Assembly: GCA_023485505.1 (NCBI GenBank)
Contig: JAMCZN010000024.1
Coordinates: 1 to 35,269 of the forward strand
From: Candidatus Martarchaeota archaeon
GTDB lineage: Archaea > Micrarchaeota > Micrarchaeia > Micrarchaeales > Micrarchaeaceae
Length of the DNA stretch: 35,269 nt
Direction: 5' to 3'
Shown here: positions 3,380-23,145 of the stretch, piece by piece
Layout: every line of letters begins with the position of its first letter
Numbering within the stretch: the first letter of the stretch is position 1
Notes under the pieces: generated by a model
What the model saw: only the letters and a program-made list of their open reading frames with translations
What the model was told of the DNA's origin: nothing
Database searches by the model: none
Translations under genes and position numbers: made by a program

Positions 3380-4120
3380 TCATTTCTTCTCTTCTGCCGG
3401 TGCAGCCGCTTTCTTCTCCGCTTTCGGAGCCGCTGCCCCTGCTGCCGGCGCTGCTGCCGCAGCCATTACCTTTGCAGCCTCTGACTTCTTCATAACTCCT
3501 ATTGTGGCGCCACTCCTTCCGGTTGAACGAGTATGCTGCCCGCGGACCTTTTGGCCGTACTGATGCCTAAAGCCGCGCCACGTCCTGTTCGAAACGTCTC
3601 TTGTCACATCCTGCCTTCCGGCAAAAAGCAAGTCGTTGCTTACAACGTGGACATTTCTTCCTGTTTCAAAGTCCTTGTTTCTGTTAAGCATGAATTCCGG
3701 AATCCCGTACTTAGCCGGGTTCTTTATCACTTCTTCTATCTTCTCTATCTGATCCTCGTTAAGCGTGCTCAGTTGAGTAGACCTTTGTATCCCAAGATTT
3801 GTCTCTATTGAATGAGACAGCGCATGAGCCATGCTCTGGCCTATCCCCTTTACCTGGTCGAGGGCTCTCTGAAGGCTCAACTCACCGTTGACATCCTTTC
3901 CTGCAAGCCTTATGATTGATGATGTTCTTTCCGGTTCCTTCCTTTTGCCCCCCTCCTTCTTCTCAGGCTTTTTCTCGGACTTTGCCTCCGCAGATGCCGA
4001 CGGCTTCTCTGCCTTTGCCTCTTGCTGTTTTTCTATCCTTTCCTTTTCTGGTTTTTCAGCCAATATATGCACCTTAACATTAACTTCATTAACATAATAC
4101 GCCAAGGCTGGGATTTTCAT
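3380..4120 (-). CDS. rps13: 30S ribosomal protein uS13 with long N- and C-terminal extensions
   Basis: The uS13 core runs from about residue 66 (SIIRLAGKDVNGELSLQRALDQVKGIG) through VRGQHTRSTGRSGATIGV. It binds the head of the 30S subunit and contacts the P-site tRNA. Archaeal uS13 is usually about 150 residues; here it is about 246, with a Lys/Glu/Ala-rich N-terminal extension (about residues 20-65) and an Ala/Pro/Lys/Glu tail of about 35. I chose ATG at 4120, preceded by GAGG, because the longer TTG start at 4135 would overlap the 3' end of the tRNA gene at 4131. It heads the rps13-rps4-rps11 cluster and may share the tRNA promoter. Confidence 0.95.
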   Translation of the reverse strand: MKIPALAYYVNEVNVKVHILAEKPEKERIEKQQEAKAEKPSASAEAKSEKKPEKKEGGKRKEPERTSSIIRLAGKDVNGELSLQRALDQVKGIGQSMAHALSHSIETNLGIQRSTQLSTLNEDQIEKIEEVIKNPAKYGIPEFMLNRNKDFETGRNVHVVSNDLLFAGRQDVTRDVSNRTWRGFRHQYGQKVRGQHTRSTGRSGATIGVMKKSEAAKVMAAAAAPAAGAAAPKAEKKAAAPAEEKK

Positions 4121-4130
4121 AAACCTCTTG

Positions 4131-4232
4131 GCCAAAACTAAGAAGTTTACTTTGAACCCAGAAGGCTCAAAGAGCCATGCGCTTCCTGGATGCTTTCCAG
4201 GCGCACGCGTTACCGGTTTCCGCCACCTTGGC
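4131..4232 (-). tRNA. tRNA-Ser(GGA), 11-nt intron, expanded T-loop
   Basis: Folding the minus strand gives acceptor GCCAAGG paired with TTTTGGC (two G-U pairs), a GCG/CGC D-stem with GG in the loop, anticodon stem TGCGC/GCGCA, a long variable arm GGCTC-TTT-GAGCC, and T-stem CTGGG/CTTAG. The anticodon loop is 18 nt; removing 11 nt (4184-4194) leaves CTGGAAA, anticodon GGA. Cut sites fall after the second base of AAA and GAA, flanking a 4-bp CTGG/CCAG helix, as in a bulge-helix-bulge with a small loop. The long variable arm fits serine. Two oddities: the T-loop is 14 nt (4143-4156) and not 7, and base 73 would be C where serine tRNAs normally have G. Confidence 0.8.
4184..4194 (-). other. tRNA-Ser(GGA) intron, 11 nt
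   Basis: Intron at canonical position 37/38. The sequence AGCATCCAGGA separates the two halves of an otherwise standard 7-base anticodon loop. Its CCAG pairs with CTGG of the exon (this includes part of the anticodon), giving a 4-bp central helix with 3-base AAA and GAA elements to be cut by the splicing endonuclease after their second base. Confidence 0.7.
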
Positions 4233-4254
4233 TTGTTTGTATATTTAAAAATGC

Positions 4255-4264
4255 TATTTAAAAA
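4255..4264 (-). promoter_or_regulatory. TATA box for tRNA-Ser(GGA) and probably rps13-rps4-rps11
   Basis: TTTTTAAATA on the minus strand is centred about 27 bases upstream of the tRNA start at 4232, the normal spacing for an archaeal box A. No other TATA-like element lies between the tRNA and rps13, so the ribosomal protein genes may be transcribed through the tRNA. Confidence 0.55.
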
Positions 4265-4328
4265 TCCATCAGATGGAGCACTATATATTCATATAAAAAG
4301 GTATTTAAACGCTCTTGAATGGGTTTAA

Positions 4329-5399
4329 TTAGGGAGCATTAGCGGTAGTGGTGGTTGTCGTGTTGGCAGACGCATGCATTAGCTCTTCAAGCACCGATAT
4401 GGCCTGCAGTTTGCATACGGGCGCGGTGTTGTTTATTGCCGGGCACATCTTCGCTATGTATATGTCGGCGCCGGCATATTCTGTCCATGCGAATTGGTCA
4501 TTGAAATTATGGAACTGTGAAAGTATCTGGTAATGCGTCTCATGCGCTATTGGCAGGTTCGATGCGCCGGATGGCGTCGTATTTCCAAAGTCTATTGCAT
4601 CTGCACCGGTAACGAGGGACGTTCCCCAGTAAGTGAATGGCGTGCCGCCGAACTTTCCGGTGGAGTTCATGAAGTCCAGCACTCTCGTATATGTGGCGTT
4701 TGGAGCTTTGCTAAGGAAATATGATATTGGCTGTACTTCAAAACCGCCGGTTATCGGAGATTCATATTCTGAAGAGAAGAAATTGATATACTTGCTTGAA
4801 TAATAGTTGCCGAATGCCACGCCTTCATTAACGGTAGTGTTGACCTGCCTCCAATATAATGTAGGGACATCTCCATCGCCCAGGGCGCTATAGCCGTTAT
4901 AGAGAGCGGAGAAGTTTCCGAATTTTGCCAATGCCAGCGCCATGGCCCACCTGTTCTCCCCGCAGAATATGCAGGATACCGCACCCACATAGATAACGCT
5001 GGGCTTTCCGCCTATCACTATCGCATTGTACATCGGGGAGTTTGCCAGCACGACCTCGTTCGTAAGTGTCCCGTTAAGAAGCTTTTCTCCCGCAATTTCA
5101 TAATAGCTTAACGGTTCGTTGTTGATGTAAGAAAGCTCAGTGGCGTTGAGCGGAGCGTTTATACCGGCAAGCGTGCCAGTGGACGCGTTGGCGTTGTTTA
5201 ACCCAGATATAGTATTCGGGGTCGCAGATAAAAGCACGCTGACCTGCGCTTCCAATGCAGTTATTGTCGAACCCTGATATGACACCATAGCCACAAGAAC
5301 AACAACAAGGAATATCGCAGCCAGTGAAGTAGCAGTATTCAGATATGTCATCTTCCTGTACGTTGCGAGTTGCTTGTCCCTTCTTGCCATGTAAAACAT
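4329..5399 (-). CDS. DUF929-like membrane-anchored thiol protein
   Basis: 356 residues. A short basic cytoplasmic start is followed by one membrane helix (about residues 24-40), a Ser/Thr/Asn-rich stretch with many N-glycosylation-type sequons, and a domain with KPSVIYVGAVSCIFCGENRW near residues 132-151. A strand followed by Cys-x-x-Cys and then E-x-RW-x-x-A-x-AL-x-x-FGNF is the pattern of the archaeal DUF929 family, first known from Sulfolobales, and recalls a thioredoxin-like active site (Cys143, Cys146). I infer a surface redox or sensing role outside the membrane. The extreme C-terminus is a threonine run. ATG at 5399; MARRDK (three codons later) is another possible start. Confidence 0.7.
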   Translation of the reverse strand: MFYMARRDKQLATYRKMTYLNTATSLAAIFLVVVLVAMVSYQGSTITALEAQVSVLLSATPNTISGLNNANASTGTLAGINAPLNATELSYINNEPLSYYEIAGEKLLNGTLTNEVVLANSPMYNAIVIGGKPSVIYVGAVSCIFCGENRWAMALALAKFGNFSALYNGYSALGDGDVPTLYWRQVNTTVNEGVAFGNYYSSKYINFFSSEYESPITGGFEVQPISYFLSKAPNATYTRVLDFMNSTGKFGGTPFTYWGTSLVTGADAIDFGNTTPSGASNLPIAHETHYQILSQFHNFNDQFAWTEYAGADIYIAKMCPAINNTAPVCKLQAISVLEELMHASANTTTTTTANAP

Positions 5400-5470
5400 C
5401 GAGATATATAGATTCGTAATGGAATGTCCATTACTGCTTATTACCGGATAACTTATGATGCTGTAGATGC

Positions 5471-5478
5471 TTATAAAT
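5471..5478 (+). promoter_or_regulatory. TATA box of tatD-like gene
   Basis: TTATAAAT ends 24 bases before the ATG at 5502. The spacing places the transcription start at or next to this ATG, which favours a leaderless message starting at 5502 over the longer reading frame that begins at 5424, upstream of the box. Confidence 0.55.
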
Positions 5479-5501
5479 ACATTCCCATAATAGCTGTTTA
5501 T

Positions 5502-6314
5502 ATGCCGGAAAAATTAGCAGTAAAGGAGATGCAGAAGATGGAACTGCAGAGCCAGAAGCTGGAGATGGCGGATTCGCATTGCCATCTTGACATGCTTGAC
5601 ACGGCATCCATAATGGACTCGATAAGCTATGGCGTATTGACAATGATAACCAATGGCATCAACTATTACACGAACAAAAAGGCGCTTGAAATATCCGATC
5701 ACAAACATGTTTTCCCCGCCATCGGGATCGATCCCGACACAGCAATACAGATCAGCGATGAAGACCTTGATGATGAGATAAACAGGAACATTGAGCTAAT
5801 AAAGGCAAACTCAAGCAGGATAGTCAGTATTGGAGAGATAGGGCTCGATTTTAAGAAGGCGTCGACATTCGAGCTGGTCGCAAAACAGAGAACAGTATTT
5901 GAAAGGTTTGTAGATGTCGCAATTGAGCTTGGGCTACCGGTAAGCGTGCATTCCAGGGACGCGATGGACACCGTGCTTGAGATTCTCAAAGAAAAGAAAA
6001 CAGAGCTAGTGCACCTGCATTTCTTTGAGGGGAACGTGCAGCAGGCGAAGGAGGCCGAAAGGCTCGGCTATATGATATCAATACCGCCATTAGAGTCAAG
6101 CAAGAGGATGCACGTGATGAAAGACGTAGCGATAGATCATCTCCTCGTGGAAAGCGACGCCCCGGCTGCGGGAAAGACGCCAAAGGACGTGGAGAAAAGC
6201 ATAAGGATGATAGCTGCCGCAAAGCGCATGGGCATCGACAAAGTAGCCGAAACCATAACGCAGAACACGAAGAGCTTCTTCAAAATCCACGGACGAGGCC
6301 TTATGAGGTCCTGA
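5502..6314 (+). CDS. tatD: TatD-family metal-dependent hydrolase (DNase)
   Basis: TIM-barrel metal hydrolase. Metal ligands can be seen: DSHCHLD (H-x-H) near residue 25, GEIGLD with the bridging Glu, VHSRDA, LHFFEG in place of the usual HCFSG, and LVESDAP near the end. Family members are 3'-5' exonucleases/DNases. The start is ATG at 5502 (270 residues), set by the TATA box at 5471-5478; the family is usually 250-265 residues, so a longer start is not needed. It diverges from the DUF929-like gene and is followed by tRNA-Arg. Confidence 0.88.
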   Translation: MPEKLAVKEMQKMELQSQKLEMADSHCHLDMLDTASIMDSISYGVLTMITNGINYYTNKKALEISDHKHVFPAIGIDPDTAIQISDEDLDDEINRNIELIKANSSRIVSIGEIGLDFKKASTFELVAKQRTVFERFVDVAIELGLPVSVHSRDAMDTVLEILKEKKTELVHLHFFEGNVQQAKEAERLGYMISIPPLESSKRMHVMKDVAIDHLLVESDAPAAGKTPKDVEKSIRMIAAAKRMGIDKVAETITQNTKSFFKIHGRGLMRS

Positions 6315-16218: not shown

Positions 16219-16968
16219 ATGGATGTTTTGGTTCTTTGTGGAGGTTACGGCAAAAGGTTAGAGCCGGTCTCTGAATTTGTGCCAAAGTCCCTTCTCCCCG
16301 TACAAGGAAAACCAATAGTCGAACATATTCTGGAAAAGGTCGCAGATCTTTCTGATGAAGCCATGATAAACAGGGTGATAATAAACTCTAACGGGAAGTT
16401 TGCCGAACATTTCAGGTACTGGGTTAACCTGAGAAAATCCACTTACAAGTACGGGCTTGTCGAAATGGCAGACCCCACAACAAATAACGAAACTAAGCTT
16501 GGGGCTGTTGGAGGCATTAATTACTGCATCACAGAACTGGACATAAATGACGATTTACTTATCATAGCCGGCGATAATTACTTTGACTTTGAATTGACGG
16601 ACATCGACAGGCAATTCAGGGAGACCAACAAACCGGTAATAGCCCTGTTTGACATAGGCTCAAAGAAGGAAGCCGCACGCTTTGGAGTCATTGAGATGAA
16701 GGGCAATAAAGTAAACGGGTTTGAAGAAAAACCGGGCAACCCAAAATCAACACTCATAAGCACCGGGATTTACTTCTTTCCAAAAAGAGTATTGCCAATG
16801 ATAGGAGGTTACCTAGGGGATGGCAATCCAAAGGACAATATAGGGAGCTTCGTTTCATGGCTCATAAAGAGTACAGAAGTCCATGGCGTCATACAAAAAG
16901 GCATATGGGCGGATATAGGTACCCTTGATGCATACAGGAAACTTCTTCTGGAGCTGGAAAATAAATGA
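16219..16968 (+). CDS. sugar-1-phosphate nucleotidyltransferase
   Basis: 249 residues of the NTP_transferase family (RmlA/GlmU-like), which join NTP and a sugar 1-phosphate. The nucleotide-binding VLCGGYGKRLEPVSEFVPKSLLPVQGKPIVEHILE at the start is diagnostic, followed by LIIAGDNYFDFELTD with the metal-binding Asp, RFGVIEMKGNKVNGFEEKP and ADIGTLDAYRKL. No C-terminal left-handed helix repeat is present. The exact sugar is unknown. It follows the glycosyltransferase by 12 bases and is probably in the same operon. Confidence 0.92.
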   Translation: MDVLVLCGGYGKRLEPVSEFVPKSLLPVQGKPIVEHILEKVADLSDEAMINRVIINSNGKFAEHFRYWVNLRKSTYKYGLVEMADPTTNNETKLGAVGGINYCITELDINDDLLIIAGDNYFDFELTDIDRQFRETNKPVIALFDIGSKKEAARFGVIEMKGNKVNGFEEKPGNPKSTLISTGIYFFPKRVLPMIGGYLGDGNPKDNIGSFVSWLIKSTEVHGVIQKGIWADIGTLDAYRKLLLELENK

Positions 16969-16973
16969 TCTGC

Positions 16974-17347
16974 TTATTTCTTTTGTTGCGCAGCCTGCGG
17001 AGGAGTTAGCTCAATCACATACTTCGATATCACTTTTGCAGCATAGTCAAGCACTCTTTTTATGTTAGCTTCGGTATTTGTGCCGGTGCATATCATCTTC
17101 CCATTCTTGAAAAGTATTATTACCGCCTTTGGCTCTGCAATCTTGAATATCGCGCCGGGGAACTGTTCTGGCTCATAGTCTACTGCCTTCACCTCTTTTG
17201 AGAGCGCATAAAGGTCTATCACCGCGTGAAGGTCTGCGCTCACCACTATGTTCTGTATTTTTATTGCTGGAGTCGGTATGTTCTCGCTATTTGGTCTTGT
17301 TTTCTTGTTCGCCTTGCCACCTTTTTTAGAAGCCGTTGAATCACCAT
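16974..17347 (-). CDS. tbp: TATA-binding protein with one repeat only; 5' frame disrupted
   Basis: The frame ending at 16974 encodes one TBP repeat: KIQNIVVSADLHAVIDL, AVDYEPEQFPGAIF and AVIILFKNGKMICTGT, with the Phe and the LLF-GK-CTG strand that contact the DNA minor groove. Normal TBP has two such repeats in about 180 residues; here there is one (about 90) plus a Lys-rich leader. The frame has no ATG, GTG or TTG before the GTG at 17246, which would remove the first strand (KIQNI). An ATG at 17347, correctly spaced from a TATA box at 17373-17385, is in the -1-related frame and joins the TBP frame at an A6 run (17322-17327). With that shift the product is about 124 residues. Upstream the reductase gene leaves no room for a first repeat. 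Confidence 0.8.
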
Positions 17348-17372
17348 TGTTACAGTACTTTTAAAATAGAAA

Positions 17373-17385
17373 GATATATATACTA
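17373..17385 (-). promoter_or_regulatory. TATA box of the tbp gene
   Basis: An uninterrupted TA-rich element (TATATATA core) lies about 30 bases upstream of ATG 17347 on the minus strand, giving a transcription start near 17352. It supports 17347 as the real initiation site even though this ATG is out of frame with the TBP repeat. Confidence 0.5.
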
Positions 17386-17432: not shown

Positions 17433-18548
17433 ATGAGAGTGATAATCGTTGGTGCCGGCGTAATAGGTCTTTTCCTAGCCAAGAGGCTTGCAGAACAGCG
17501 CATTGATACCATTGTCTATGAATCAAAAAGCAGGATATCACAGGATACCGCAAAGGCATCCGGAATATTTTCAATAGATGGATTTGCAAAGCTAGGAGTA
17601 AATCCAAGGGAAGCCATGGTCAACATGCTAAACGGGGCGCACATATATGCTGGAGGGGAAAGGTTGGATATCATTTCAAAAAAGGACAAGGCATATGTGC
17701 TCGACAGGGGAAAGTTGGCCGAGATATGCATGCGCGAAGCCGAAAGGGCAGGGGCGAAGATAATCCTCGGAAAAAGGCTGAAGAAGGAGGACATAATCGA
17801 GCTCAGCAAAGACAGTGAGAATATCATGGTTGGTGCGGACGGCGCCGTATCTACGGTCGCAAGCGCGCTTGGATTCCCGGCCATAAAGGAGCATATACTG
17901 ACTTACAAGGCGGAATACGAAATGGCAACAGGAAATAATGGCATGGAAATAGACAAGGTGAACCTGTTCTTCTCAAACAAGATAGCAAAAAGGTTCTTCG
18001 GATGGACAGTGCCGTACTCAAATGGCAAACTGGAGATAGGGATTGGAATAAGCAGCAGGTCGAAGGAGACAAGCACGATGGCATTCGACAAGTTCCTTGA
18101 AATCGAATATATGAGGTCCATGATAACAGGAGCAAAGAAGACCGCAGGATATGCGAGCATCATTCCACTCGAAGCAAGAGCCAAAACAGTATCGAGAAAT
18201 GCAATATTGGTTGGCGACGCAGCGGGGCAGGTAAAAGCAACAACGGGGGGCGGCATAATATTTGGAGTGGCATGCGCGGAGGTGGCAGCATCATCGATTA
18301 AAAAATATGTTGAAGGAAAGGCGCCATTGGAACACTATGAAAAGGCATGGAGGAGGATGTACGGGGCGGACCTAAGGCTCCACAGGATGTTCCACGAATA
18401 CTATTCACATACGAACGAGGCGACGCTGGGGCTCATGATAAGGACGGCAAAGGTGCTCGGGCTTGACAGGTTCCTCGGAGAATACGGCGACATGGACAGC
18501 CCAAAGCTCATAATAAAGCGGTTCGTGCTCAGGGGGTTTGCCAAATAA
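17433..18548 (+). CDS. geranylgeranyl reductase family flavoprotein
   Basis: 371 residues. The FAD-binding GxGxxG is in VIIVGAGVIGLFLAKRLAE at the start; the second FAD motif is ILVGDAAGQVKATTGGGIIFGV near residue 265, which in this exact form marks the geranylgeranyl reductase family. In archaea these enzymes saturate the isoprenoid chains of membrane lipids; other members act on menaquinone. The PWTVPYSNGK-type motif is seen as FFGWTVPYSNGKLEIGIG. It diverges from tbp and has a TATA-like GCTTTATT about 30 bases before the ATG. Confidence 0.88.
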   Translation: MRVIIVGAGVIGLFLAKRLAEQRIDTIVYESKSRISQDTAKASGIFSIDGFAKLGVNPREAMVNMLNGAHIYAGGERLDIISKKDKAYVLDRGKLAEICMREAERAGAKIILGKRLKKEDIIELSKDSENIMVGADGAVSTVASALGFPAIKEHILTYKAEYEMATGNNGMEIDKVNLFFSNKIAKRFFGWTVPYSNGKLEIGIGISSRSKETSTMAFDKFLEIEYMRSMITGAKKTAGYASIIPLEARAKTVSRNAILVGDAAGQVKATTGGGIIFGVACAEVAASSIKKYVEGKAPLEHYEKAWRRMYGADLRLHRMFHEYYSHTNEATLGLMIRTAKVLGLDRFLGEYGDMDSPKLIIKRFVLRGFAK

Positions 18549-18558
18549 TCGGATATCG

Positions 18559-19944
18559 TCATAGCGACATGCTAACCGTCGATGCGATGCTTATGAACGG
18601 CTGCGGATACAAGCCAAACAATATTACCACTATCAGAGATATCAGGGAAACGGTTGCGATGCTCCAGTCCATGCTTACCTTCTCGTGCGGACGCTTTGAA
18701 TAAATGGACATCATGACCCTCGCATAATAGTATATCGATATGAAGCTGTTTATTATCGCTATCAGGGTGAGATAGAGGAGGCCCTGGTTTATCGCACTCG
18801 TAAACAGCAGGAACTTGCCCACGAAGCCCATCAATGGCGGCACGCCTATCATCGAAAGCATGAATATAGTAAGCGCAAATGCGGCGAACCTGTTCCTTGA
18901 ACTAAGGCCAAGATAATCCTGCACCGTCTTGATGTTCTTTGTTTCCAGCCACAATATGATTGCAAAAGTGCCGATTATCATGAACAAATGCGCGGCGATC
19001 TGGAATATGCTAGACTCCACGCCATATGCAGTGGCGGCGGCGATCCCTATTGCGATGTAACCGGCCTGTGAGATAGACGAATATGCAAACAGCCTCTTGA
19101 CATTATCCTGCACCAGCGCGACTATGTTTCCAAAAAACATAGTAAATACGGCAAGAACCTGGAACATCGATGAGAACGCGGCGCTGAACGGTATCATGGT
19201 TATGAAAAGTATCTCGAACAGCGCAACAAAAGCGACCTTCTTGTTTATTCCGGCAAGCATCGCGGTTATGTTGGCCGGCGCACCGCTATATACATCGGGA
19301 ACCCATAGGTTGAAAGGAAATATAGAGGCTTCAAAAGCAAGCCCGGCTATCACAAGCAGCAATGCAAGCACAGGCAGATATCCGGTCATGCTCGATATAC
19401 TGGTAAGGGAAAGCTGCGGATCAAATGGAAACAGCAGGACAAGGGCAAACGCAAGTACGGTTATGCCTATTGCAGAAAGTATGAACAGCTTTACGGCAGC
19501 CTCTATGTTCTCTTTGCCATTGACCATTATCATGAAAGCGGTTGGAAGGGACACCAGCTCTATGCCAAGCACTATCTCTATAAGCGAATAAGCCATCGCC
19601 ACGCTGTACATGCCGAAAGCGACGAACCCAAGAAGGAGCGAAAATGCAAAATAATCCTTTGAGTACCTGTATGAAATTATATTTACCATGATGAGGCCAA
19701 CGGAGAAAAGGGCCACGAAAAACATTGAAAACGGATAGATGTTAAGCAGATTGGCGGCGAATATATCATAAGTATTTGATTCCAATAGCACTATTGCAAG
19801 CACCGTTATTACGGCAAGGAAGGTTGTGCTTATTATGAGCTGGGCCTTCTTCCGTTTGTGGAATATGGAGAGCGCATTCACGAAAATGAATAACAATATC
19901 ATTATGCAAAGCGCGTATTCGTCCATTGAGATATATTGTTGCAT
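18559..19944 (-). CDS. nuoN: complex I subunit NuoN
   Basis: 461 residues, about 14 membrane helices, an antiporter-like subunit of the proton-pumping arm. Diagnostic are SLIEIVLGIELVSLPTAFMI (helix with the conserved Glu), LWVPDVYSGAPANITAMLAGINKKVAF and KRLFAYSSISQAGYIAIG. Subunit N has fewer insertions than L and ends without a lateral helix, as here. It is the last gene of the cluster, four bases after nuoM. Confidence 0.93.
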   Translation of the reverse strand: MQQYISMDEYALCIMILLFIFVNALSIFHKRKKAQLIISTTFLAVITVLAIVLLESNTYDIFAANLLNIYPFSMFFVALFSVGLIMVNIISYRYSKDYFAFSLLLGFVAFGMYSVAMAYSLIEIVLGIELVSLPTAFMIMVNGKENIEAAVKLFILSAIGITVLAFALVLLFPFDPQLSLTSISSMTGYLPVLALLLVIAGLAFEASIFPFNLWVPDVYSGAPANITAMLAGINKKVAFVALFEILFITMIPFSAAFSSMFQVLAVFTMFFGNIVALVQDNVKRLFAYSSISQAGYIAIGIAAATAYGVESSIFQIAAHLFMIIGTFAIILWLETKNIKTVQDYLGLSSRNRFAAFALTIFMLSMIGVPPLMGFVGKFLLFTSAINQGLLYLTLIAIINSFISIYYYARVMMSIYSKRPHEKVSMDWSIATVSLISLIVVILFGLYPQPFISIASTVSMSL

Positions 19945-19948
19945 ATAA

Positions 19949-21382
19949 TCATATAGAGAAATTTGAGAATATACTTAAAGCTATGAACGGAAGCACACCG
20001 AATAGGAATATGAAGAACAAAAGTATAGAAAACCCGACCCTTTGCGAAGTCCCTACGTATTCGACAGGCTTTGACGCATCTTTAGTGGACAGTATGGATT
20101 TATTGACCACATAATAAAGAAATGCGCCCATCAGCATTATGGAAAATAGCGGAATGGCCCCGTATAATGAAAACTTCTGTATGGCTGCGATGAATATGAG
20201 CACGTCACCGACAAATGCGGCGGTGAGCGGCACGCCGGTGGTTGCAAACACCCCGGTAAGGAACGTGTATGCCGTTGAAATCGAGTTTCTCACCACCCCC
20301 TTGACCGACCTTATGTCGCGATCCGAGAACATGTATCCTATCGTTCCAGACACCAAGAATAACATCGATATGGCAAACCCGTGAGCCAGCATTGCGTATG
20401 TGGCGCCCATTATCCCAAGCGTGCTGAATGCGGATATGCCAACAAGCACTATGCTCATCTCGACTATGGTCGTATATGCGATTATCCTCTTTATGTCGTG
20501 CTGTGTCATCAGCACAAACGCGGCGTAAAACGCCGAAAACCCGGCAAGTATCGCTATTACTGGGGTAAACTCGTTGGCTATTGGCAACATGATGAACGCA
20601 AGTATCATGCCATAACCCCCGAATTTGGTAAGCACGCCGGAAAGCAGCATTGATCCCTGTGTGGATGCTTCGGTATGCGCATCCGGAAGCCATAGGTGCA
20701 CCGGGAATACGGGCATGTTTATAAGGAACGCAAAGAAGAACAACGAGAATATCAGGGCCTGGGTGCCGACAGGTATGGAAGAGTAGTTTGCGGTTATGTA
20801 TGATATGTCAAAGGAGTGCAGCGGAGTGTTGAAATATATCAGCATTATGGCAAAAAGCAGCAATAGGCTGGCAAGAAGCTCGTACATTATGAACTTTATG
20901 GCAGCCATGCGCCTGTTTGCGGATCCCAATAAGTATATCATGAAGAACAACGCCACAACCCCCACATCCCAGAATATGAAGAATATGAATAGGTTTCCTG
21001 ATGCGAAAAGCCCTATAGCGGCGAGCTCGAACAACAGCACCAATATGCTTGAAACCTTCAGGTTCTCGTTTTCCACATTCCCGGAAAGCATAGTCACGAA
21101 TGACACGACAGACGCCATCAGTATTAGCGCAAGGGACACAGGATTTACTACGAAGTTCAGGCTTATGCCAAAGTTTGATATGTAGTACATGTAGTTTTCA
21201 GATATGGATCCGGGCGAACCGGCGGCTCCTGCCAAAAACACGTAAAGCAGCAGTATTGCCAGTTCCATCACGATAAGCGACACTACGGTGCTTATCACTT
21301 TGCTGTATTTTTCATTGAACACAATGGTCACGGCTAACCCAATCGAGAGCAGGAGCAACATAATTCCTATTATTGGTATCAT
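19949..21382 (-). CDS. nuoM: complex I subunit NuoM
   Basis: 477 residues, about 14 membrane helices. VFPVHLWLPDAHTEASTQGSMLLSGVLTKFGGYG with the channel Lys and HDIKRIIAYTTIVEMSIVLVGI are typical of NuoM among the three antiporter-like subunits. A conserved Glu lies in the helix FELAAIGLFASGN. It takes part in proton translocation next to NuoL and NuoN. The start overlaps the nuoL stop by four bases. Confidence 0.95.
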   Translation of the reverse strand: MIPIIGIMLLLLSIGLAVTIVFNEKYSKVISTVVSLIVMELAILLLYVFLAGAAGSPGSISENYMYYISNFGISLNFVVNPVSLALILMASVVSFVTMLSGNVENENLKVSSILVLLFELAAIGLFASGNLFIFFIFWDVGVVALFFMIYLLGSANRRMAAIKFIMYELLASLLLLFAIMLIYFNTPLHSFDISYITANYSSIPVGTQALIFSLFFFAFLINMPVFPVHLWLPDAHTEASTQGSMLLSGVLTKFGGYGMILAFIMLPIANEFTPVIAILAGFSAFYAAFVLMTQHDIKRIIAYTTIVEMSIVLVGISAFSTLGIMGATYAMLAHGFAISMLFLVSGTIGYMFSDRDIRSVKGVVRNSISTAYTFLTGVFATTGVPLTAAFVGDVLIFIAAIQKFSLYGAIPLFSIMLMGAFLYYVVNKSILSTKDASKPVEYVGTSQRVGFSILLFFIFLFGVLPFIALSIFSNFSI

Positions 21383-23145
21383 GCTAACACGTACAAAACA
21401 ATCAAGAACATAATTCCTAGCACAAAGGCGAATACGTATGAATTTGTCTGGCCATTTACGATCTTCCTTAGGCCGTTTCCGCTGGTTATCACAGACCTTG
21501 CAAGGCCATAGATGGATTTGTCAAAAGAGAAGTCAAATGCAGATACGGCGCGCGCAAACGCCATAGTAACCCCAACGATGTACAGATAAACTGCATTGAC
21601 GGCCCTGCTGCTGTAAAGCACATTGAACAGCATTTTGTTGGTGGACGAGAGCTTGGCCCTGAAGCCTTTCATATATACCCTATAGGCTACAATAATTCCG
21701 ATGACCGCTATCACGTTTCCGACTACAGCCGACAATAACGCAATGCTGTAGCTTCCGTTCAAGAACCCAGGAAGCTTCAGGTATGCGTAATCGGCCACGA
21801 ATACCAGGGCAGCAAGGATGAACATAGGTATAAGCATGCTCCTAGGGGTTGATTTGTAATTTATGTTTATTTCGGTGCCGGACTCGTACGACTTCCTTAA
21901 CGGTATGAAAAGCCACCTGAATATGTAGATGCTTGACGCAAACCCTATCAGCAGCAGCATGCTGTATACCACCATATTGCTTGCAACCGAATTCACGGCA
22001 TCCTTTCCGAAGAATCCGCTCATAGGGAACAGGCCGGCCAGTGATACGGCGGCTATCACTATAGAGAGGAACACAAGCTTTCTCGTGGACGAGCCATATG
22101 TGGAATAGATGTCCTCCTTCTCGTCATTAGCCTTCATTATGTATCCGGCGCCCATGAACAACAATGCCTTGTAGAAGGCCTGCACGAAGAAGAGCATCAT
22201 TGCAGCCATCACGGAACCAAGCCCGAGCGCAACGAACATCAACCCAAGGTCTTCTATTGTCGAATATGCAAGTATCTTCTTTATGTGCCTTTCAGTAAGC
22301 GCATTGGTGGCGCCCAATATCGCGCTTACAAGCCCTATGACGAGGATTATGCCAAGCATGTCGGCTTTCACGTAAAGGGGGAACAGCACCGCTATCAGGA
22401 AAACACCAGCCTTGACCATAGTGGAAGAATGCAGGAATGCGGACACTGGCGTGGGGCCTTCCATTGCATCTGAAAGCCATTCGTGGAACGGGAACTGCGC
22501 AGATTTTGTAAACGCTGCAATAAGTATGAATGATAGCGCGACATAAAGCGCAGGTGATGATGGAGAGCCCATTATCGCGCTAAATCCAAATGTGCCGTAG
22601 GTTGTCCCGATTATCAATATCGCGGCAAGCATGAATATGTCGCCGATAAGTATCGTCGTTATCGCCTTCCTGGCAGCGGTGGGCGCATGCTCCTTGTGGT
22701 ACCAGAAACCTATCAAAAGATAGCTGGTTATCCCAAGCATCTCCCATGCTATGAACATGGTTATGAAGTTCGCGCTTATCGCAAACAGCATCATGGATGC
22801 CGCAAATATGCTCATCTCGAAAAAGAATCTTGGCTGTTCGCTCGGAACTTCCATGAAGCCTAGAGAATAAAGGAAGACCAACGGGGTTATCAGGGATACC
22901 ACCATCAGGAGCAGCATGTTCAGCGGAAGAGTCGCGATGGATATGTTGAAGCTTATTCCGTTAGCGGAGAACCAATTGAAGCTCTGGGTGGTAAATGGCC
23001 CGTATGAAAACACAAGATACGCGAGCAGAAGCGAAACCAGGCTTGCCGCGAATGCGATATATTTCACAATATTTGGGAATCTTTTCAGCGGCAACGCAAG
23101 CAAGGCCGCCGCGAGCAATGGCACAATCACTAATAATGCAAACAT
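21379..23145 (-). CDS. nuoL: complex I subunit NuoL
   Basis: 588 residues, the distal antiporter-like subunit. FPFHEWLSDAMEGPTPVSAFLHSSTMVKAGVFLIAVLFPLY, in order, and LAYSTIEDLGLMFVALGLG are NuoL signatures; the C-terminal part after residue 450 corresponds to the extra helices and lateral arm that run along the membrane arm. It starts directly at the nuoK stop (TGAATG), so translation is likely coupled. Confidence 0.95.
   Translation of the reverse strand: MFALLVIVPLLAAALLALPLKRFPNIVKYIAFAASLVSLLLAYLVFSYGPFTTQSFNWFSANGISFNISIATLPLNMLLLMVVSLITPLVFLYSLGFMEVPSEQPRFFFEMSIFAASMMLFAISANFITMFIAWEMLGITSYLLIGFWYHKEHAPTAARKAITTILIGDIFMLAAILIIGTTYGTFGFSAIMGSPSSPALYVALSFILIAAFTKSAQFPFHEWLSDAMEGPTPVSAFLHSSTMVKAGVFLIAVLFPLYVKADMLGIILVIGLVSAILGATNALTERHIKKILAYSTIEDLGLMFVALGLGSVMAAMMLFFVQAFYKALLFMGAGYIMKANDEKEDIYSTYGSSTRKLVFLSIVIAAVSLAGLFPMSGFFGKDAVNSVASNMVVYSMLLLIGFASSIYIFRWLFIPLRKSYESGTEININYKSTPRSMLIPMFILAALVFVADYAYLKLPGFLNGSYSIALLSAVVGNVIAVIGIIVAYRVYMKGFRAKLSSTNKMLFNVLYSSRAVNAVYLYIVGVTMAFARAVSAFDFSFDKSIYGLARSVITSGNGLRKIVNGQTNSYVFAFVLGIMFLIVLYVLA

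Follow-up and report, generated by a model that had tools for sequence, protein, structure and literature searches.

The window, that is, the whole stretch of DNA that was analysed (35,269 nucleotides), is one contig (C25) of a Micrarchaeota MAG of 751 kb that is 73% complete. It encodes on its minus strand a TATA-binding protein (TBP) with a single lobe, here called A, and the following features were assigned at and around this locus:

16974..17336, minus strand: TBP-A, single-lobe TATA-binding protein, 120 codons plus stop counted from ACG, with a Lys-rich leader and then one lobe
17019..17264, minus strand: TBP lobe proper of the A gene, PF00352 positions 2-85
17334..17336, minus strand: proposed ACG start codon of the A gene, conserved in the A-type genes of the family
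17340..17345, minus strand: Shine-Dalgarno sequence GGTGAT, 3 nt before the ACG of the A gene
17374..17382, minus strand: TATA-like box TATATATAT, inferred promoter upstream of A, positioned by analogy with relatives
17359-17368: second AT box upstream of the A gene, inferred promoter region
17433..18548, plus strand: FAD-dependent oxidoreductase, geranylgeranyl-reductase-like (GGR-like), divergent neighbour, context only
16219..16968, plus strand: nucleotidyl (NTP) transferase, convergent neighbour, context only

The stop-to-stop frame of the A gene spans positions 16974-17360 of the minus strand (128 aa) and gives exactly one PF00352 match, which covers profile positions 2-85 of 85 and, with 84.7 bits (cut-off 22.9), lies far above chance level. 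The EQFPG and ILFKNGK...CTG motifs and the Lys-rich leader are all found in the protein. Between the end of the NTP-transferase gene at 16968 and the beginning of the oxidoreductase gene at 17433, there is no space for a second lobe beside A. The original prediction, made from the sequence alone, had claimed a TBP of a single repeat with intact DNA-contact features and no room for a first repeat beside the reductase gene; both claims held, and the gene extent it gave, 16974-17363, was corrected to 16974-17336 with an ACG start. Elsewhere in the window (18559-23145, minus strand), three adjoining Proton_antipo_M proteins of the complex I or Mrp antiporter type are encoded, in what is a reduced symbiont genome.

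The A frame contains no ATG, GTG, or TTG codon before the GTG at 17246, a position already within the first beta strand. The start was placed at the ACG at 17336-17334 on the basis of a comparison with relatives. In 30 A-type loci of the window's family, including that of A_DKE, the sequence GGTG(A/G/T)T is followed, usually after 3 bases and in a few cases after 4, by ACG; loci sharing ACG after GGTGNT include window positions 17334-17345 (minus strand), L232, L096, and L105. In six A-type loci, a stop codon immediately precedes the ACG, so that no upstream start is possible there. The codon at this position is ATG in Mia14 (L085) and L104, GTG in L101, and ATA in L115. Among 11 window genes, ACG accounts for 63 of the 269 Thr codons. 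The missing ATG of the A gene is explained by this conserved ACG, the proposed start. A frameshift by which the ATG at 17346, itself out of frame, would open the lobe frame was considered and rejected, since several relatives carry a stop codon directly before the shared ACG that follows GGTGNT. Such a conserved near-cognate start suggests, by inference only, that the A protein is scarce.

A second, separate single-lobe TBP gene, B, is located on contig C15 of the same MAG (L001 1447-1788), where it starts with ATG and adjoins a gene resembling ribosomal protein L21e. Over the matched part, the A and B proteins share 51% identity, and their contact residues are the same. Neither a two-lobe TBP, in a profile search, nor TFB was found in this 73% complete MAG, and the absence of TFB is probably due to incompleteness. 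The TBP set of the MAG itself cannot be called complete, and the case therefore rests on its relatives.

The AlphaFold model of the A protein predicts one TBP lobe (pLDDT 87.5); all significant matches to PDB structures are TBPs, and the model superimposes on a human TBP lobe with 0.8 A rmsd over 82 columns. The minor-groove Asn and Val, the two DNA-kinking Phe residues, and the YEPE stirrup do not vary among the 173 single lobes compared. In established TBP structures, YEPE is the C-lobe form of the stirrup, the one that binds TFB; its first Glu is missing in seven of nine classical N lobes. With one lobe per open frame, A does not meet the criterion of two lobes in one polypeptide and therefore counts as a variant rather than a standard TBP. 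The curated NCBIfam TBP models that were matched are all 181-194 positions long; single lobes span half of such a model and remain below cut-off, as does the two-lobe relative L130. For a two-lobe relative with lobes 79% identical to each other, the predicted structure is a normal saddle (pLDDT 95.3; TM of 0.85-0.90 against archaeal TBPs), and near-identical lobes can therefore plausibly form a saddle.

Within the window's family, TBP-lobe matches were obtained in 67 of the 70 genomes searched, almost all of them as separate A and B frames. The lone two-lobe frame in the family (G022:C43, L003) is probably a contaminant, likely from the host, because its lobes group with classical TBPs and it lies on an 8.4 kb contig. 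A few genomes lack any lobe, for example G197 (92% complete), which we infer to reflect missing contigs. The closed genomes of Ca. Mancarchaeum acidiphilum Mia14 (G021; 952,257 bp; PMC5498576) and Ca. Micrarchaeum harzensis A_DKE (G206/G236; 989,838 bp; PMC8975820) contain A and B only, hundreds of kilobases apart in both chromosomes, and no two-lobe TBP was found in either.

The survey of the phylum comprised 224 genomes, almost all of them with a completeness of 80% or more; 215 had a TBP match, 145 in single-lobe families and 70 in two-lobe families. These counts assign whole families from the members that were read, and not every match was listed. Genomes of the sister family f2 have either a single B-like gene or both B and an orthologue of A; the lone lobe gene of many f2 genomes is of the B type, and A was not seen alone in well-covered genomes. 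Families f3-f13 have a two-lobe TBP, with frames of 185-264 aa where both lobes were listed, and families f14-f20 and f22-f26 have mostly one single-lobe gene. Outside the window's family, single-lobe genes occur in about 90 more genomes of the phylum, often with one as the sole TBP, and single lobes are also present in some genomes labelled Diapherotrites or unclassified. Single-lobe homologues are conserved across the phylum. A scan of viral contigs turned up only classical two-lobe TBPs.

One genome (G121:C62, locus L127) carries two tandem single-lobe TBP genes (3995-4327 and 5273-5602), about 950 bp apart, an arrangement that might be an intermediate on the way to a fused two-lobe gene. 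In G117, which belongs to the same genus, there are three single-lobe TBP genes.

TFB matches were present in 93 of 96 high-quality genomes, and the copies read were intact with both cyclin repeats. TFBs of families f1 and f2 (L236-L239) are extended at the N terminus by roughly 50-100 aa of basic, low-complexity sequence, which is missing from most other Micrarchaeota TFBs read. The genome G027 (one contig, 771,545 bp) has a single lobe only; no further lobe was found there in an unfiltered search with Micrarchaeota and classical lobe profiles, the next-best match having an E value of 2.5. Its 42 tRNA genes show an AT peak at -36 to -24, with the motif TATTTAA near -31. TATA promoters thus persist where the sole TBP found is one lobe. 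This promoter evidence comes from tRNA genes, an earlier k-mer scan with crude gene starts having been uninformative, and tRNAs were too few to compare box symmetry (14 in G021 and 10 in the two-lobe control G043).

The N and C lobes are 50-79% identical in the two-lobe TBPs of Micrarchaeota (L069-L081, L129-L167) and 41-52% identical in Pyrococcus, Sulfolobus, and Methanocaldococcus. In lobe trees, Micrarchaeota and Diapherotrites lobes, whether single or fused, fall on one side of a branch (support 99/96 and 100/97) with the classical N and C lobes on the opposite side, and FastTree on the full lobe set reproduces this main split. A split of a classical TBP into an N-half gene and a C-half gene is not supported by these trees, in which A, B, and the other single lobes all lie apart from the classical N and C lobes. 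Holding all archaeal C lobes together as one clade, as expected from a single ancient duplication, made the log-likelihood 34.9 worse (AU p 0.09) on the lobe alignment of 81 columns and is disfavoured, not rejected; the classical N lobes may also be held together (p 0.60). The trees leave the source of the single lobes unresolved, with no clear preference among an N lobe, a C lobe, and a pre-duplication gene.

Both the grouping of the lobes and the similarity of the halves would be explained if single lobes had re-fused or if gene conversion had been strong. A bolder reading, which we regard as no more than a possibility, is that the Micrarchaeota/Diapherotrites branch has the single lobe as its basic state, either retained from before the duplication or regained early, and that the symmetric two-lobe TBPs were remade by tandem duplication and fusion. 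If this were true, the textbook origin of TBP would have occurred more than once and would be traceable in living lineages. The near-symmetric two-lobe TBPs of Micrarchaeota are useful in their own right as natural comparison material.

Our results demonstrate the existence of single-lobe TBP genes, their conservation, their intact contact residues, and the absence of a two-lobe TBP from closed genomes; the lobe fold of A is a model prediction. We consider it likely that A is a functional one-lobe TBP and that the only TBPs of its clade are single lobes that pair into a saddle, although both dimerisation and DNA binding are inferred. In this view, the window's family and many related Micrarchaeota families would have lost, or never had, the two-lobe chain, and two single-lobe chains would pair non-covalently into a TBP saddle on the TATA box, which would then recruit TFB and RNA polymerase. 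An A-B heterodimer would probably form beside a B-B homodimer in the window's family, and in one-gene families the saddle would be a homodimer. The orientation of the complex would be set by TFB and the promoter, not by asymmetry of TBP. Because the lone f2 gene is B-like, B is read as a self-sufficient homodimer and A as its partner or regulator, and between these two roles of A the data favour neither. Which pairs form cannot be told from the sequence alone, as A and B share their contact residues, and dimers have been shown neither by experiment nor by a model of the complex.

The strongest alternative is that B, or the lone lobe gene elsewhere, is the general homodimeric TBP, and that A is a specialised or regulatory paralogue that serves a subset of promoters or modulates B. 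A is not found alone in well-covered genomes, and B-type genes are alone in many f2 genomes; A forms a tight, diverged clade (100/99), and its weak ACG start, found in most members of the family, would suit a low-abundance regulator. Against this, A occurs in essentially every good genome of the family and retains all DNA- and TFB-contact residues, which would suit a core subunit equally well. We judge this alternative a serious one, though less likely than not.

It is unlikely that a lone lobe acts as a monomer that binds one half of the TATA site while TFB covers the other. In favour of this, TFB is present and, in f1 and f2, extended at its N terminus, and each lobe carries a full contact set. 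However, the edge of the sheet at which two lobes are usually joined would lie exposed in a lone lobe, the TATA boxes have kept their normal length, and two-lobe relatives build one saddle from two near-identical lobes.

Even less support exists for an overlooked, divergent two-lobe TBP, either chromosomal or borrowed from the host, that does the real work. These archaea live on hosts, and the MAG G022 has a contig with a classical two-lobe TBP, but the grouping of its lobes with classical TBPs and the 8.4 kb length of that contig point to contamination, and the unfiltered search of G027 yielded one lobe only; we consider this explanation very unlikely. That A is the remnant of a two-lobe tbp, or the product of an assembly error that dropped the first lobe, is practically ruled out: the lack of a standard start codon in its frame upstream of 17246 would fit such an origin, but the conserved ACG explains the absent ATG, dozens of independent assemblies, as well as closed genomes, show separate lobes with intact flanks and invariant functional residues, and no sign of a second joined lobe was seen at the window locus.

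The preferred reading, paired single-lobe TBPs, bears on the remaining claims of the original prediction. Its suggestion of a possible remnant beside a normal tbp failed, as the genome yielded no two-lobe TBP and single lobes are found phylum-wide, closed genomes included. Its claim that a functional protein would have to act as a homodimer held in part: the second gene, B, makes an A-B heterodimer possible, and a homodimer remains natural for the one-gene families, dimerisation being inferred in both cases. Its comparison with the postulated half-TBP ancestor held as a likeness, and whether the single-lobe state is primitive or derived is not settled.

Archaea and eukaryotes need TBP for transcription, and the literature describes the protein as one chain of two lobes (PMC7221094), with a single lobe treated as its prototype (PMC7221094, PMC4910066). 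The archaeal TBPs of Pyrococcus, Methanocaldococcus, and Sulfolobus (PDB 1ais, 2z8u, 1mp9) share the lobe fold and sequence family of A, have, as the single lobes do, two kinking Phe residues, a minor-groove Asn, and an EPEQFPG stirrup per lobe, and occur with TATA boxes and TFB within the same genomes, as in the single-lobe relatives; they differ in having two asymmetric lobes in one chain, whereas the Micrarchaeota single-lobe TBP has one lobe per chain. The hypothetical half-TBP ancestor of the duplication and fusion model (PMC7221094, PMC4910066) would likewise have had one lobe per gene and needed pairing, but these papers regard it as a prototype that has vanished, whereas the Micrarchaeota genes exist in living cells. 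Bacterial RNase HIII (PMC7221094) also has one TBP-like domain per chain, but there it is a domain of a nuclease and the similarity is remote, whereas A is closely related to true archaeal TBP. The lobes of the two-lobe TBPs of other Micrarchaeota and Diapherotrites (for example L078, L130, L180) group with the single lobes (99/96 to 100/97); these lobes are fused and 50-79% mutually identical, and A is unfused. DPANN surveys record TBP as present without comment on its form. No report of single-lobe TBPs was found in the open-access literature searched; subscription papers and preprints were outside its scope, and priority is uncertain.

With TBP halves present as separate genes across a phylum, the half-TBP ancestor that has been postulated can be tested on living proteins, and the question arises of how a symmetric TBP gives direction to transcription. 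Natural pairs of symmetric and asymmetric TBPs are available for comparison, and the two co-cultured species, Mia14 and A_DKE, make experiments feasible.
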